DNA of 64,000 bases, taken from positions 558,001 through 622,000 of the forward strand of contig NZ_JABFVK010000013.1 in the NCBI RefSeq assembly GCF_013362815.1, written 5' to 3'. Each line of letters begins with the position of its first letter. The stretch's first letter is position 1. Below are positions 35,895 through 42,270 of the stretch, piece after piece. Made by a program: the position numbers and the translations under genes. Source of the DNA: Hamadaea sp. Its GTDB lineage: Bacteria > Actinomycetota > Actinomycetes > Mycobacteriales > Micromonosporaceae. Under the pieces are notes generated by a model, which ran no database searches, was not told where the DNA came from, and saw only the letters and a program-made list of their open reading frames with translations.

Positions 35895-36596
35895 TCAGGC
35901 GGAGGGACCGAGGTCCCAGTCGTCGTTCGAAGTGCGCAGTACGCGTACCGCCGCGACGGCGAACCCGAGCGCGGTGAGCCCCCAGGCCGCGGCGTCGCCG
36001 ATCGGGTTGGGCACGATCGCGGCGAACACGAGATGCAGCGGCTGGGAGACGATCAGGGCGATTCCGGCCCACGCCGGGATCGCGCCGGACCGCCACAGGG
36101 CGGTGCCGAGCAAGATCGCGCCGAGGATGTGCCCGGCGACGAAGAGCACCCCGGCGGCCAGCGCCGCTCCGTGGGAACCGGCGGAGTCCAGGATGCGCAG
36201 CGCCGCTGTGCGATCGGCGTCCGCCGCGGCTGTGCGTACCAGGATGTCGTTGTTGACGATGGGCAGCACGAGATAGGCCGGCACGAGGAGTGTGAGGCCC
36301 GCGAGCGTCAGCCTGGGCGCACGGCGTTGCGCGAGGCGGCCGGCGGCGAGCGCGGACGGCACGAGCGTGAGCGTCGCGAGCAGGCCGAGCCAGACGACGG
36401 CGTCCAAGCGGCCGAGCGCGGACGCCGAGTGATCGAGCAGGTCCGGGCCCTCGTCCGTGGTGTGGTACGGCAGGATGCCGCGCAGGACGGCGACCGTCAG
36501 CGGGCCGAGCGGCAGCAGGACCGCCGCCGCGACCCGCCGCACCGTGCGGGTGTCGGCCCGCGCCGTGGCCGATGGGCGAGTGAGTGTCGTAGTCAT
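35895..36596 (-). CDS. Polytopic membrane protein, hypothetical
   Basis: A 233-residue protein with about six transmembrane helices, an N-terminal polar stretch and features such as 'HTTDEGPDLLDHSASALGRLDAVVWLG' and 'NDILVRTAAADADRTAALRILDSAGSHGAALAAGVLFVAGHILGAILLGTALW'. It resembles DUF4386-type membrane proteins only loosely. It is divergent from a histidine kinase gene 130 bases away, whose system may sense or control it. Function unknown. Confidence 0.7.
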   Translation of the reverse strand: MTTTLTRPSATARADTRTVRRVAAAVLLPLGPLTVAVLRGILPYHTTDEGPDLLDHSASALGRLDAVVWLGLLATLTLVPSALAAGRLAQRRAPRLTLAGLTLLVPAYLVLPIVNNDILVRTAAADADRTAALRILDSAGSHGAALAAGVLFVAGHILGAILLGTALWRSGAIPAWAGIALIVSQPLHLVFAAIVPNPIGDAAAWGLTALGFAVAAVRVLRTSNDDWDLGPSA

Positions 36597-36726
36597 GGGA
36601 CTGACGCTCCGCCGGAGCCGCCCCCGAGCGCCCGGGGCTCCGCCGCCGCCTGTGCCGGGAAAACGCCCGGGACGCGTAGGGGCAGGACCCCACCCACTCA
36701 GGCCCAGCAGGCCCCACCATGGAGAC

Positions 36727-38679
36727 GTGACCAGAACGCGACCGCTCGCCTGGCTGCTCCTCGGAGTGGCCGCCGCGCTGCTGGTCGCCGCCGTCGCCGG
36801 GGCGGCGGCCCTGCGGCTGTCCGCGAGCGACGTCGTGGACAGCTACCTGCTCACGAACTCGGCGATGGGAGTCGGATTCGCCGTCTGCGGCGGCATCCTC
36901 GCCGTGCAGCGCGGTCGCAATCCGATCGGCTGGCTGCTGCTCGCGGCCGGGGTCGCCCACCTGCTCACCGCGGCGAGCGGGGCAGTGGGCGCCTACGGCT
37001 TCGATCAAGGCTGGCCGGAGCCGGTGCTGCGGATTCTGGCGAGCCTGTTCGTGTTCGGCTGGCCGTGGGGGATCTGTCTGCTCCTGCCCTTGTCGCTGCA
37101 GCTGTTTCCGGACGGCCGTCCGGTCACGCCCCGGTGGCGCTGGCTCGTGGTCGTGACGGTGATCGCCGGAGTCGGCTTCGTCGCGGCGATGTCGCTCGAC
37201 TCGGTTCCGGTGGAATTCCGGTCCGGCGTCGCCGTCCGCACCTACCTCGGGCTGCCGTTCTACCATCAGCTCAGTCCCTTGTGGACGGCCGCCAACACTG
37301 CGCCGCTGCTCGGCCTGCTCGGCGCGATCTCCGGCCTCGTGGTGCGTTATCGGCGCGGTGACGAGCGCCTGCGCCGCCAGCTGCTCTGGCTCGTCCTCGC
37401 GCTCATCGCGGCGGTCGCGGTCAACCTGCCACGCTGGATCGTCGGTGACGGCCCCATCCTGCTGCTGCTCGCGGTGCCGCTCGTCCCGATCGCCATCACC
37501 ATCGCGATTCTGCGGTATCAGCTGCTCGACATCCGGCTCGTCGTCTCGCGCTCGCTGCTCTACCTGTTGCTCACGCTCGGCGTCGTGGTCGCGTACCTGG
37601 GCCTGGTCGCGCTTTTCGACGCCCTGCTGCGCGGTGCGGGGGCGCCGCTCGTGGCCACGTTGCTCATCGCGATCCTCTTCAATCCTGTGCGGGTACGCCT
37701 TCAGCGGGCGGTCGATCAGCTGCTGTACGGGTCGCGGTCCGACCCGGTCGCCACGGTGTCCGCGGTCGGGGCCCGGTTGGCCGCCGACGATCTCGGGGGA
37801 GTGCTGACCGGCATCCGGGAGACGTTGCGGCTGCCCTTCGCGACGCTGCGCTCCCGATCCGGGGAGGTCGCCTCGGCCGGTACGCCGCCCGGCCGCCTGG
37901 AGACGGTGGCGCTGACCTACGGCGGCGAGCGCGTCGGCGACCTGCTCGTCGGCGTACGCGCCGGGGACAAGGCGCTCGGGGACGCCGACCGGGCGGTGCT
38001 GAACCTGCTCGCCGCACCGCTGGCCGCCGCGCTCCATGCGACCGAGCTGGCGGAGGAGGTCCAGGCCAGCCGCGAACGGATCGTCACCGCGCGCGAGGAG
38101 GAACGCCGCCGCCTGCACCGGGATCTGCACGACGGGCTCGGCCCGACGCTGACCGGGGCCGGGTACAAGGCCGACGCCGCCCTCAACCTGTCCACCTCGG
38201 ACCCCGACCAGTCGCGGCTGCTCCTCGGCGAACTGCGTGCCGACATCGGCACCGCGATCGACGACGTACGCCGTCTGGTCTACGGGCTGCGTCCGCCCGC
38301 GCTCGACGAGGTCGGCCTGATCGGAGCGCTGCGACGGCACTGCGAGCGCCTGCCGCTGGAGGTCACCTTCGCAGCGCCCGCTCAAGTGCCGGCGCTGCCC
38401 GCCGCGGTGGAGGTGGCGGCGTACCGGATCGTCACCGAGGCGCTGACGAACGTGACCCGCCACGCGGCTGCCACCGCCGTCACCGTCACGATCGCCGTCG
38501 GCACCGAGGTCGAGGTCTCCGTCGTCGACAACGGCCGCAACGGCGGTCCGTGGCCGGCCGGCGTCGGCCTCACCTCGATCCGGGAGCGTGCCGCCGAACT
38601 CGGTGGCCTCTGCACGGCCGGTCCCGGCCCCGGCGGCGGGCGCGTCATGGCAGTCTTGCCCCTGGAGGTTTCCGCATGA
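36727..38679 (+). CDS. Membrane sensor histidine kinase (NarL/DesK type)
   Basis: A 650-residue sensor kinase. The N-terminal ~300 residues hold about eight to nine hydrophobic helices; a GAF-like or linker region follows; the HisKA_3 motif 'EEERRRLHRDLHDGLGPTLTGAG' has the phospho-acceptor His near residue 468; the HATPase domain ends the protein ('EALTNVTRHAAATAV', 'VVDNGRNG', 'GVGLTSIRERAAELGG'). It autophosphorylates and passes phosphate to the overlapping response regulator gene. GTG 36727 is chosen because GGAG precedes it and the first membrane helix then starts at residue 7. The signal is unknown. Confidence 0.88.
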   Translation: MTRTRPLAWLLLGVAAALLVAAVAGAAALRLSASDVVDSYLLTNSAMGVGFAVCGGILAVQRGRNPIGWLLLAAGVAHLLTAASGAVGAYGFDQGWPEPVLRILASLFVFGWPWGICLLLPLSLQLFPDGRPVTPRWRWLVVVTVIAGVGFVAAMSLDSVPVEFRSGVAVRTYLGLPFYHQLSPLWTAANTAPLLGLLGAISGLVVRYRRGDERLRRQLLWLVLALIAAVAVNLPRWIVGDGPILLLLAVPLVPIAITIAILRYQLLDIRLVVSRSLLYLLLTLGVVVAYLGLVALFDALLRGAGAPLVATLLIAILFNPVRVRLQRAVDQLLYGSRSDPVATVSAVGARLAADDLGGVLTGIRETLRLPFATLRSRSGEVASAGTPPGRLETVALTYGGERVGDLLVGVRAGDKALGDADRAVLNLLAAPLAAALHATELAEEVQASRERIVTAREEERRRLHRDLHDGLGPTLTGAGYKADAALNLSTSDPDQSRLLLGELRADIGTAIDDVRRLVYGLRPPALDEVGLIGALRRHCERLPLEVTFAAPAQVPALPAAVEVAAYRIVTEALTNVTRHAAATAVTVTIAVGTEVEVSVVDNGRNGGPWPAGVGLTSIRERAAELGGLCTAGPGPGGGRVMAVLPLEVSA

Positions 38680-39320
38680 TCCGGATCGTGGTGGCTGACG
38701 ACCATCCCGTCGTACGCGACGGGCTGCGCGCCCTGTTCACCTCGCTGCCCGGCACCGAGCTGGTCGGCGAGGCGACGAGCGGGCGGGAGGCGATCCGGGC
38801 CGCCGTCGTCGAGCGCCCGGACGTGCTGGTCATGGACCTGCGGATGCCCGACGTCGACGGCATCGCCGCCACGGCCGAGATCCGCCGGGTCGCACCCGAG
38901 GTCGCCGTCCTCGTCCTGACGATGTTCGACGACGACGAATCGGTGTACGCCGCGATGCGCGCCGGAGCGCGCGGCTACCTCGTCAAAGGCGCGGCCCAAG
39001 ACCAGATCTCGCAGGCGATCACCACGGTGGCCTCAGGCGGGGCGATCTTCAGCCCCGGGGTCGCCCGCCAGATCCTCGACTACTTCACCGGCCCGGCGCC
39101 GGCGGCGCAGACCGAGCCGTTCCCGGAGCTGACGGCCCGGGAACGCGAGATCCTCGACCTCATCGCAGCGGCGCTGCCCAACGCGGCGATCGCCACCCGG
39201 CTCGGGCTCGCCCCGAAGACGGTCGGCAACCACATCTCGGCGATCTTCGCCAAGCTGCAGGTCGCCACCCGGGCCGAAGCGATCGTCCGGGCCCGGGAGG
39301 CCGGCCTCGGCCGCTTGTGA
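38676..39320 (+). CDS. NarL/FixJ-family response regulator
   Basis: A 214-residue two-domain regulator. The receiver domain has phospho-acceptor Asp54 ('VLVMDLRMPDVDG') with acidic 'VADDH' and the conserved Lys in 'YLVKGA'; the C-terminal LuxR helix-turn-helix is 'LTAREREILDLIAAALPNAAIATRLGLAPKTVGNHISAIFAKLQVATRAEA'. It overlaps the kinase gene as ATGA (38676-38679). The likely target includes the divergent membrane-protein genes, by analogy with autoregulated systems; no binding site was identified. Confidence 0.92.
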   Translation: MIRIVVADDHPVVRDGLRALFTSLPGTELVGEATSGREAIRAAVVERPDVLVMDLRMPDVDGIAATAEIRRVAPEVAVLVLTMFDDDESVYAAMRAGARGYLVKGAAQDQISQAITTVASGGAIFSPGVARQILDYFTGPAPAAQTEPFPELTAREREILDLIAAALPNAAIATRLGLAPKTVGNHISAIFAKLQVATRAEAIVRAREAGLGRL

Positions 39321-39982: not shown

Positions 39983-42115
39983 CTAGGGGGACGGCGTCGG
40001 GGAGACGCCGTTGGCGAGGGGGAAGTCGATCCGGCCCACGTGAGACGGTCCGGCGAGCTTCTCCTTCGGCATACCCGTGCTGTAATCGGCGACGACGCCC
40101 GACCAGATGCGGAAGGGCGCGGTCCCGGCCGTGATCGTCGCCTTGGTCAGCGGGTCGACCACCGGGGCGGAGCCCGCGGCGTTGCCGGTCCAGATCGCGA
40201 CGGTCACCTGCTTGGTGAAGCCGACGACCCAGGCGTGGGCGTTCTCGGGCGTCGGCTGGAGCTTGCCGTCGCGCAGCACCGAGCCCTCCCACGTCCCGCC
40301 GACCGTGGCGATCTCTCGGCCGTCCACGGCGGCGGTCCATCGCCGGTCGGCCGCGACCTGCGTCATCGCGTAGGTGACGTCGCCCGCGACGGCCGGGCGC
40401 ATGACCTGCTTCGGGGCCTGCTTCGCCCCGACGCCGGCGATGGGCAGGTAGCTTCCCGTGACGGGGTCGCGCTTCTCGACCTTCTGCACGAAGTACGGCT
40501 TGTTGTAGACGCCGCCGTTGGCGATCGTGCCGATGCCGGCCGCGTTGTCCAGCACGGTGACCGCGTACTGGCCGTAGCCGACCGGGCGGTCGAACGGAAA
40601 GCGGCTGTTCGGGCTCTGAACCGAGGCGCGCGCGAGCTGCTCCTTGCCGTCGGCGTCCCACATGCAGCGGATGCCCGCCTGGTACGCCGTCTTCACGATC
40701 GCGCCCGGGCCGAGCTGCCGGGCGACCCAGTAGAACGGCACGTTGTACGACTTCACGAAGCTTTCGGTGAGCGTGCAGTACTCCTTGCAGGGAGCGGAGG
40801 ACGCTCCGTTGTTGCCGACGCGGATCTTGTCGGTGGGATCGGTGTAGGGCAAGGATCTCCAGTGCGAATCCAGCGAGGCTCCCGCCTCCAACGCTGCCGC
40901 CAGCGTATAGGCCTTCATCGTTCCACCCGCCGGGTGTCCGCCGACCAGCGCATTGTCCACCGTGTTCAGTCCGGCGAGGTCCGGGCCGTTGCCGTCGAGC
41001 CCGCCGTAGTACGCGAGGACCGCCCCGGTGGCGTGGTCGAGGACCACCCCGGCCGCTTCGAGATCCTGCTGCACCTTGCCGTTCGCGTCGCGTACCACCT
41101 TGGTGCCGTAAAGCTCGGAATCCTTGAGATCCGGCCGGGCGGCCTGTTCCAGCAGCAGCTGCGCGCGTGGGTCGATCGTGGTGTAGACACGGTAGCCGCC
41201 GTTGCGCAGGTCCGTCGGCTCGATGCCCTGCTGGCGGAGCTCCTCGTATACCTGGTTCACGACGTGGCCGGTCGCGCGTCCCGCGTTCTCGCCGGGCTTG
41301 ACGACGATGCCCCACTCCGCGGTCGGCGTCACCGTGGCGTACGCCCGGACGGAGGGGAACGCCTGCTGCGACCGCTCGTCCGGCGTGATCCACCGCCCGA
41401 CCAAGTTGTCGAGCACGTACGCCCACCGGTCCTTGGCCTCCGCCGGATGCGCTTCGGGATCGAACGGGCTCAGCCCGCCGTCAGCGGCGTACGGCTCGTG
41501 CAGGACACTGCCGAGAACGGCCGCCTCCGCCACCGTCAGATCCTTGGCCGGCTTGCCGAAGTACGCCTGCGCCGCGGCCTCCACGCCGACGGCTCCGCGG
41601 CCGAAGTCGACCGAGTTCAGGTAGAACCCCATGATCGTCAGCCGGTCGTATTGGTCCTCGAGCTTGCGGGCGAGCACCGTCTCCCGATAAGAGTTGCCGG
41701 TCATCTGGGTGGCGAGCCGCACATACCGGTGAGTGAGCTCCGAGCCGCGGAAGGAGTCCTTGAAGAAGTCCCGGTCCTCACCGGCGATCAGCGCGCCGCG
41801 CACCTTGTCGGGGATCACCGTCATCGGGACGGCGATCCGGTTCACCGTGCCGAGCTGGGCGAGCTGCGTCTTGCCGTCGGCGGCCATGATCGTTGTGACG
41901 CCCGCAGACTGGAAGCTCTCCGGTTGCAACGCATCGACACTGTCCACATAGTACGTCGTGACCAGGAGGCCGCCACCGAGCAGCACGGCCAAGGTCGCCG
42001 CCAGCGCCACGACAACCCGATACTTCCGGCTCCGCCGGCGTTTGCGCCCAGCTGGTTCTGCCGACACCTCCGGTGCTGCTGGTGTGATCGCCTGCGGTTC
42101 CTCGTTCGCCGTCAT
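39983..42115 (-). CDS. Penicillin-binding-protein homologue with degenerate active sites
   Basis: A 710-residue bitopic membrane protein with a basic cytoplasmic tail, one transmembrane helix (about 33-54), a GT51-like domain and a transpeptidase-like domain. The GT51 Glu is present (Glu113, 'AGEDRDFF'), but the GGSTITQQ motif reads 'RGSELTHR' and about 20 residues before it are missing. In the transpeptidase domain SxxK reads G398-T-M-K401 ('PAGGTMK'), SxN is kept (S456-Y-N) and KTG reads V605-G-G. The protein is intact, so it appears to be a pseudo-enzyme for peptidoglycan synthesis. The start ATG 42115 gives 'MTANEEPQ'; the frame upstream is not protein-like. No partner gene is adjacent. 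Confidence 0.82.
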   Translation of the reverse strand: MTANEEPQAITPAAPEVSAEPAGRKRRRSRKYRVVVALAATLAVLLGGGLLVTTYYVDSVDALQPESFQSAGVTTIMAADGKTQLAQLGTVNRIAVPMTVIPDKVRGALIAGEDRDFFKDSFRGSELTHRYVRLATQMTGNSYRETVLARKLEDQYDRLTIMGFYLNSVDFGRGAVGVEAAAQAYFGKPAKDLTVAEAAVLGSVLHEPYAADGGLSPFDPEAHPAEAKDRWAYVLDNLVGRWITPDERSQQAFPSVRAYATVTPTAEWGIVVKPGENAGRATGHVVNQVYEELRQQGIEPTDLRNGGYRVYTTIDPRAQLLLEQAARPDLKDSELYGTKVVRDANGKVQQDLEAAGVVLDHATGAVLAYYGGLDGNGPDLAGLNTVDNALVGGHPAGGTMKAYTLAAALEAGASLDSHWRSLPYTDPTDKIRVGNNGASSAPCKEYCTLTESFVKSYNVPFYWVARQLGPGAIVKTAYQAGIRCMWDADGKEQLARASVQSPNSRFPFDRPVGYGQYAVTVLDNAAGIGTIANGGVYNKPYFVQKVEKRDPVTGSYLPIAGVGAKQAPKQVMRPAVAGDVTYAMTQVAADRRWTAAVDGREIATVGGTWEGSVLRDGKLQPTPENAHAWVVGFTKQVTVAIWTGNAAGSAPVVDPLTKATITAGTAPFRIWSGVVADYSTGMPKEKLAGPSHVGRIDFPLANGVSPTPSP

Positions 42116-42270
42116 CTGCACCCCGTTTCCGTCCCGACCGTGCGTACGCCGAGAGGCCAGACGCGCGGAGCACCGTCGATGGTTGCCGGTCCGCGTCAGA
42201 CTACGGAAACCTGCCATGCCGCGGGGGCCCGTCGCTCGGTGCGTACAGGCCCCCAGGGTTCGCGGCCAAC

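Follow-up and report, generated by a model that had tools for sequence, protein, structure and literature searches.

A class A penicillin-binding protein gene of Hamadaea without intact catalytic motifs in either domain and under purifying selection

The gene, its domains and its catalytic motifs

The stretch of DNA analysed here (the window, 64,000 nucleotides from a 7.4-Mb genome of Hamadaea, a soil actinobacterium of the family Micromonosporaceae) carries on its minus strand, at positions 39983-42115, an uninterrupted frame that translates into a protein of 710 residues. Both domains typical of class A penicillin-binding proteins (PBPs) are found above the Pfam cut-offs, namely Transgly (PF00912, E 3.8e-27, with the best stretch starting at profile position 66 of 178) and Transpeptidase (PF00905, E 9.2e-26). 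The protein is a class A PBP by descent according to the Pfam matches, the tree and a fold match, with an anchor placed from the sequence, followed by a GT51 glycosyltransferase domain and a transpeptidase (TP) domain. The features of the locus are as follows.

39983..42115, minus strand: gene of a probable class A PBP pseudoenzyme, 710 residues plus stop (translation, Pfam, orthologues)
42159..42187, minus strand: candidate promoter of the sigma-E type, GGCAACC-N17-CGTCT, within a conserved non-coding block and 43 nt upstream of the start codon (cross-species conservation, consensus of PMC6767563)
41945..42016, minus strand: putative N-terminal membrane anchor, approximately residues 34-57, after a short basic tail (sequence, alignment, partial low-confidence model helix)
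41723..41779, minus strand: ruined GT51 motifs I-II, residues 113-131, EDRDFFKDSFRGSELTHRY (alignment with active paralogues)
40913..40924, minus strand: SxxK position, here Gly398-Thr-Met-Lys401 (sequence, alignment)
40742..40750, minus strand: SxN motif, kept as Ser456-Tyr-Asn (sequence, alignment)
40295..40303, minus strand: KTG position, here Val605-Gly-Gly (sequence, alignment)

The GT51 signatures EDxxFxxHxG (motif I) and QGxSTITQQ (motif II) are not intact. Glu113 of motif I is present, and approximately 20 residues are deleted between EDRDFF and the remnant of motif II relative to the active paralogue L002, which takes out the His and Gly residues of motif I. Motif II reads RGSELTHR (FRGSELTHR with the preceding residue) where GGSTITQQ is expected. 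Motif III (RKxxE) is shortened from ARKLRE to YRE, with four residues (ARKL) missing and Glu145 still in place, and the residues beyond it (YLN..DFGRGAVGVE) are retained.

In the TP domain, the catalytic Ser of the SxxK motif is replaced by Gly398 and the KTG motif by VGG, and SxN is present as SYN. No Ser that could take over is aligned at or beside position 398; Thr399 aligns with the second, non-catalytic Ser of SSMK. The preliminary description of this DNA had listed the full-length frame, these substitutions and a local GT51 deletion, all of which we found as described; the possibility that it had raised of a different Ser in the active site finds no support in the alignment.

The KTG motif holds the substrate carboxylate. 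From the known chemistry of SxxK enzymes and GT51 domains, the protein is expected to have neither activity and not to bind penicillin covalently. We thus infer from the motifs that the glycosyltransferase and the transpeptidase are inactive and that beta-lactams, penicillin included, are not bound covalently; the latter is predicted because the nucleophile is missing.

The nearest solved protein by sequence is PonA1 of Mycobacterium tuberculosis (TP domain 5crf, E 7.7e-28). An AlphaFold2 model built with 20 sequences (mean pLDDT 79.5, pTM 0.71) superposes its TP domain on that of PonA1 (5cxw) with a Z score of 43.5 and 2.4 A over 364 residues. The protein would thus keep the TP fold, although the intact fold is partly assumed, since most sequences in the alignment given to AlphaFold2 are active homologues and bias the model towards a canonical fold.

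The gene is flanked upstream by a gene for a glyoxalase-like protein and downstream by one with a weak DUF1801 match, and this synteny is not preserved in Hamadaea tsunoensis. We therefore rejected a functional operon and inferred no partner from this unhelpful context. Past the 3' end of the gene, on the opposite strand (36457-39317, plus), are genes for a HisKA_3 histidine kinase and a LuxR-type response regulator; we found no link between this pair and the PBP gene.

Origin, distribution and selection

Each of the four Hamadaea genomes searched, which make up our sample of the genus (that of the window and three others), contains one such motif-deficient copy. All four copies share the GT deletion and lack both the catalytic Ser and the Lys of KTG. 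Their SxxK regions read GGTMK, GGTMK, GGTMR and GATME, such that Gly398 corresponds to Gly, Gly and Ala in the orthologues and Lys401 is altered to Arg or Glu in two of them; their KTG positions read VGG, VGG, VGG and QTG. The SxN Ser and Thr404 of the TP domain are each altered in one orthologue, the former in H. tsunoensis, which has GYN. The survival of SYN and of Glu113, put forward in the preliminary description, thus holds for the protein of the window but not across the orthologues. In one of them (L010, genome G001), the GT51 catalytic Glu is replaced by Gln (AGQDKDFF), so that in this species motif I has lost its Glu in addition to the losses of motif II and of the RK in motif III.

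The orthologue survey that the preliminary description had proposed thus uncovered the same losses in three further genomes. Neither chance nor sequencing error accounts for them, because the orthologues carry the same changes; orthologues with intact motifs, which would have pointed to an error, were looked for, and each genome of the sample yielded a motif-deficient copy.

The genomes that carry these copies also code for active class A PBP paralogues with intact motifs. The closest one in the same genome (L002) is 61% identical, with every motif intact. In a quick protein tree, the motif-deficient copies form a single clade (SH-aLRT 99), and their sister group consists of the active A and B copies from three species. 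This shows that the gene arose by duplication from an active class A PBP of Hamadaea. Given the single clade and the common losses, the degeneration of the catalytic sites of both domains most likely predates the divergence of the four sampled genomes, and some details (Lys401, the SxN Ser) appear to have changed after the sampled species split.

We also searched 301 Micromonosporaceae genomes with a profile of the motif-deficient copies. Scores of 1285-1416 bits were obtained for the four Hamadaea genes alone; their active paralogues in Hamadaea reached at most 1069 bits, and no hit from another genus exceeded 638 bits. Motifs were read in the retrieved loci, including 48 active full-length relatives, and they are intact in every other inspected relative that has the motif region. 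In this sample, the motif-deficient form therefore appears to be confined to Hamadaea.

We determined which positions have been lost and which kept. The 48 active relatives share 120 invariant columns, of which all four motif-deficient copies preserve 88. Changes affect 16 of the 24 catalytic-motif columns as compared with 16 of the 96 others (odds ratio 10, Fisher p=3.9e-6), such that 80 of the 96 non-motif invariant columns are retained. With gapped columns excluded, the proportions are 13 of 21 and 9 of 89 (p=1.8e-6). The dN/dS values of the motif-deficient copies, calculated by the Nei-Gojobori method for the three closer species, are 0.29-0.38 (bootstrap 0.23-0.46), and those of the GT and TP domains taken separately are <0.5. 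These ratios are if anything overestimates, because the codon bias (GC3 0.92) tends to depress dS. For comparison, the values for the active paralogues are approximately 0.20 (A and B) and 0.06-0.13 (C).

The gene is thus under purifying selection, albeit clearly weaker than that acting on its active paralogues. Selection is partly relaxed, because dN/dS is above that of the active copies and the protein is less similar to its orthologues (68-72% identity) than most syntenic neighbours are to theirs (78-94%). With catalytic residues lost in all orthologues and the remainder under purifying selection, the protein has the sequence hallmarks of a pseudoenzyme.

A conserved block upstream of the gene

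In the spacer that separates the PBP gene from the glyoxalase-like gene, three species have in common a non-coding block GGCAACC-ATCGAC-N11-CGTCTGG, at about 43 nt from the ATG. Its CGTCT, which resembles a -10 element, ends 43 nt ahead of the start codon in the window and in G001; we found no clear sigma-E-type element upstream of the H. tsunoensis gene. In the sigma-E consensus of Streptomyces coelicolor, spacers of both 16 and 17 nt occur, and hrdD has GGCAACC-N16-CGTCTT (PMC6767563). The element upstream of the Hamadaea gene fits this consensus in its AAC, its spacer and its TC.

An exact search of the 7.4-Mb genome for GGCAACC-N16/17-CGTCT gave three occurrences (none in the reversed control), each of them 33-44 nt before a gene start, and the same genes have the pattern in G001. 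Besides the PBP gene, these are the genes of a SigE-family sigma factor (TIGR02983) and of a small lipoprotein-like protein. In G001, the pattern is also found ahead of an MraY paralogue and of a second class A PBP, with seven matches as compared with three in the reversed control. Variants of the element stand ahead of the active B copy. As the motif was selected after the block had been seen, this evidence is suggestive of transcription from a sigma-E-type envelope-stress promoter rather than proof of it. A riboswitch or structured leader was rejected, as no Rfam match came near the gathering score.

The sigma factor gene (L088:1501-2124 in G000; L094 in G001) has GGCAACC-N16-CGTCT 42-44 nt upstream in both species, which suggests autoregulation and designates its product as a candidate sigma factor for the PBP gene. 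The lipoprotein-like gene (L090:1501-2086 in G000; L096 in G001) has the element 33 nt upstream in both species, and its product has no match in NCBIfam or Pfam. At another locus of G001 (L085:9701-15004), the active B paralogue is found beside a divergent second MraY (TIGR00445) and a winged-helix (HTH_34) regulator. Sigma-E-like elements precede both enzyme genes, and the group looks like a spare envelope-synthesis cassette.

Possible roles and relation to known systems

We consider it likely that the gene codes for a class A PBP pseudoenzyme, conserved within the genus and specific to it, with a non-enzymatic role. Selection for such a role, as proposed in the preliminary description, finds support in the losses common to four orthologues, the conserved non-catalytic core, dN/dS values of ~0.3-0.4 and the promoter-like element, with the qualification that selection is weaker than on the active paralogues.

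This qualification would suit a slowly decaying pseudogene, in which sites were lost under relaxed selection after duplication and the frame is as yet unbroken, high GC making stops rare. Such decay would explain the raised dN/dS and the evolution faster than that of the active paralogues. Moreover, a simulation of neutral evolution at 92% GC gave a probability of ~0.04 that a frame this long remains open in a single lineage, and open frames alone are weaker evidence of function than the other signals of selection. However, all four frames are open and devoid of frameshifts, even the upper bootstrap limit of dN/dS is 0.46, the losses cluster in the catalytic motifs and not in the other invariant columns, and the promoter-like block is conserved. 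We therefore regard decay as unlikely.

A further reading is an enzyme that is still active, with another residue in place of the Ser or with the glycosyltransferase alone surviving through Glu113; in its favour, Glu113 and Glu145 persist in the protein of the window. We deem it highly improbable, since deletions or substitutions affect motif II, the C-terminal end of motif I and the RK of motif III, G001 has lost Glu113, the alignment offers no substitute Ser and Lys401 is replaced in two orthologues. A sub-case of the pseudoenzyme reading, not exclusive of it, is a receptor or sensor that binds lipid II, a stem peptide or a beta-lactam non-covalently instead of serving as a partner scaffold. 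The retention of SxN, of much of the surroundings of the TP cleft and of the GT51 residues past motif III is consistent with it, and the candidate envelope-stress promoter would suit a sensor or buffer. Nevertheless, the carboxylate-holding KTG is gone in all four copies, and the scattered changes in the cleft (Lys401 in two copies, the SxN Ser and Thr404 in one) argue against a conserved ligand pocket. We consider this possibility rather unlikely.

Returning to the pseudoenzyme with a non-catalytic role, the conservation of the scaffold while the catalytic sites were lost indicates that the protein probably acts via protein contacts, perhaps during cell-wall stress. A duplicate of an active class A PBP lost the catalytic motifs of both domains, and the remaining membrane-anchored protein has stayed under purifying selection. 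Perhaps expressed from a sigma-E-type envelope-stress promoter, it may occupy or bridge peptidoglycan-synthesis complexes, where it might hold partners such as active PBPs together or, by analogy with the restraint of RipA-RpfB by mycobacterial PBP1/PonA1, restrain cell-wall hydrolases. We propose this stress-regulated, partner-binding mechanism only tentatively. Nothing distinguishes the scaffold and regulator roles, both named in the preliminary description; its third suggestion, a beta-lactam-insensitive partner, is no more than a possibility.

In the literature searched, outside which most subscription journals lie, we found no example of a genus that maintains a naturally inactive class A PBP. 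It is conceivable, if rather less than probable, that this protein, as the first of its kind to be described, is a class A PBP pseudoenzyme inactive in both domains and serves as an envelope-stress-induced, beta-lactam-proof decoy or adaptor that replaces active PBPs in peptidoglycan-synthesis complexes and limits or redirects synthesis and hydrolysis during wall damage. If so, the structural role of bifunctional PBPs, hitherto inferred from engineered mutants, would here be found in nature apart from the catalytic one, and the protein would suggest a stress response built on a drug-insensitive copy of a drug target.

The active paralogues of Hamadaea (A, L002; B, L016; C, L003) share the TM-GT51-TP architecture with the motif-deficient copy, which is 61% identical to A and 44% to C. 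In contrast with it, they retain the GT51 motifs, SxxK (SSMK or SSFK) and KTG. They also have a long cytoplasmic N-terminal tail with GRASVP-like repeats and a long C-terminal tail. These long tails are absent from the motif-deficient form, which may thus miss some of the contacts of its paralogues.

The S. coelicolor sigma-E regulon, which includes PBPs, has the same GGCAACC-N16/17-CGTCT element; sigma dependence in Hamadaea is predicted from the element. Inactive cell-wall enzyme folds that regulate wall hydrolases are already known: dead LytM factors such as DipM regulate hydrolases via protein contacts (PMC10336132). They differ in being hydrolase-derived and unrelated in sequence, and in that their regulatory role has been experimentally shown. 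The structural role of PBP 2B in Bacillus subtilis does not depend on its catalysis (PMC5656894). Finally, M. tuberculosis PonA1/PBP1 belongs to class A, as does the ancestry of the Hamadaea protein, but its active site is intact and it does bind penicillin (5cxw, complex with penicillin V). It has a reported regulatory contact, as mycobacterial PBP1 binds RipA and inhibits the RipA-RpfB synergy (PMC2912383). The PBP1-RipA and PBP 2B precedents make a contact role for the Hamadaea pseudoenzyme plausible.
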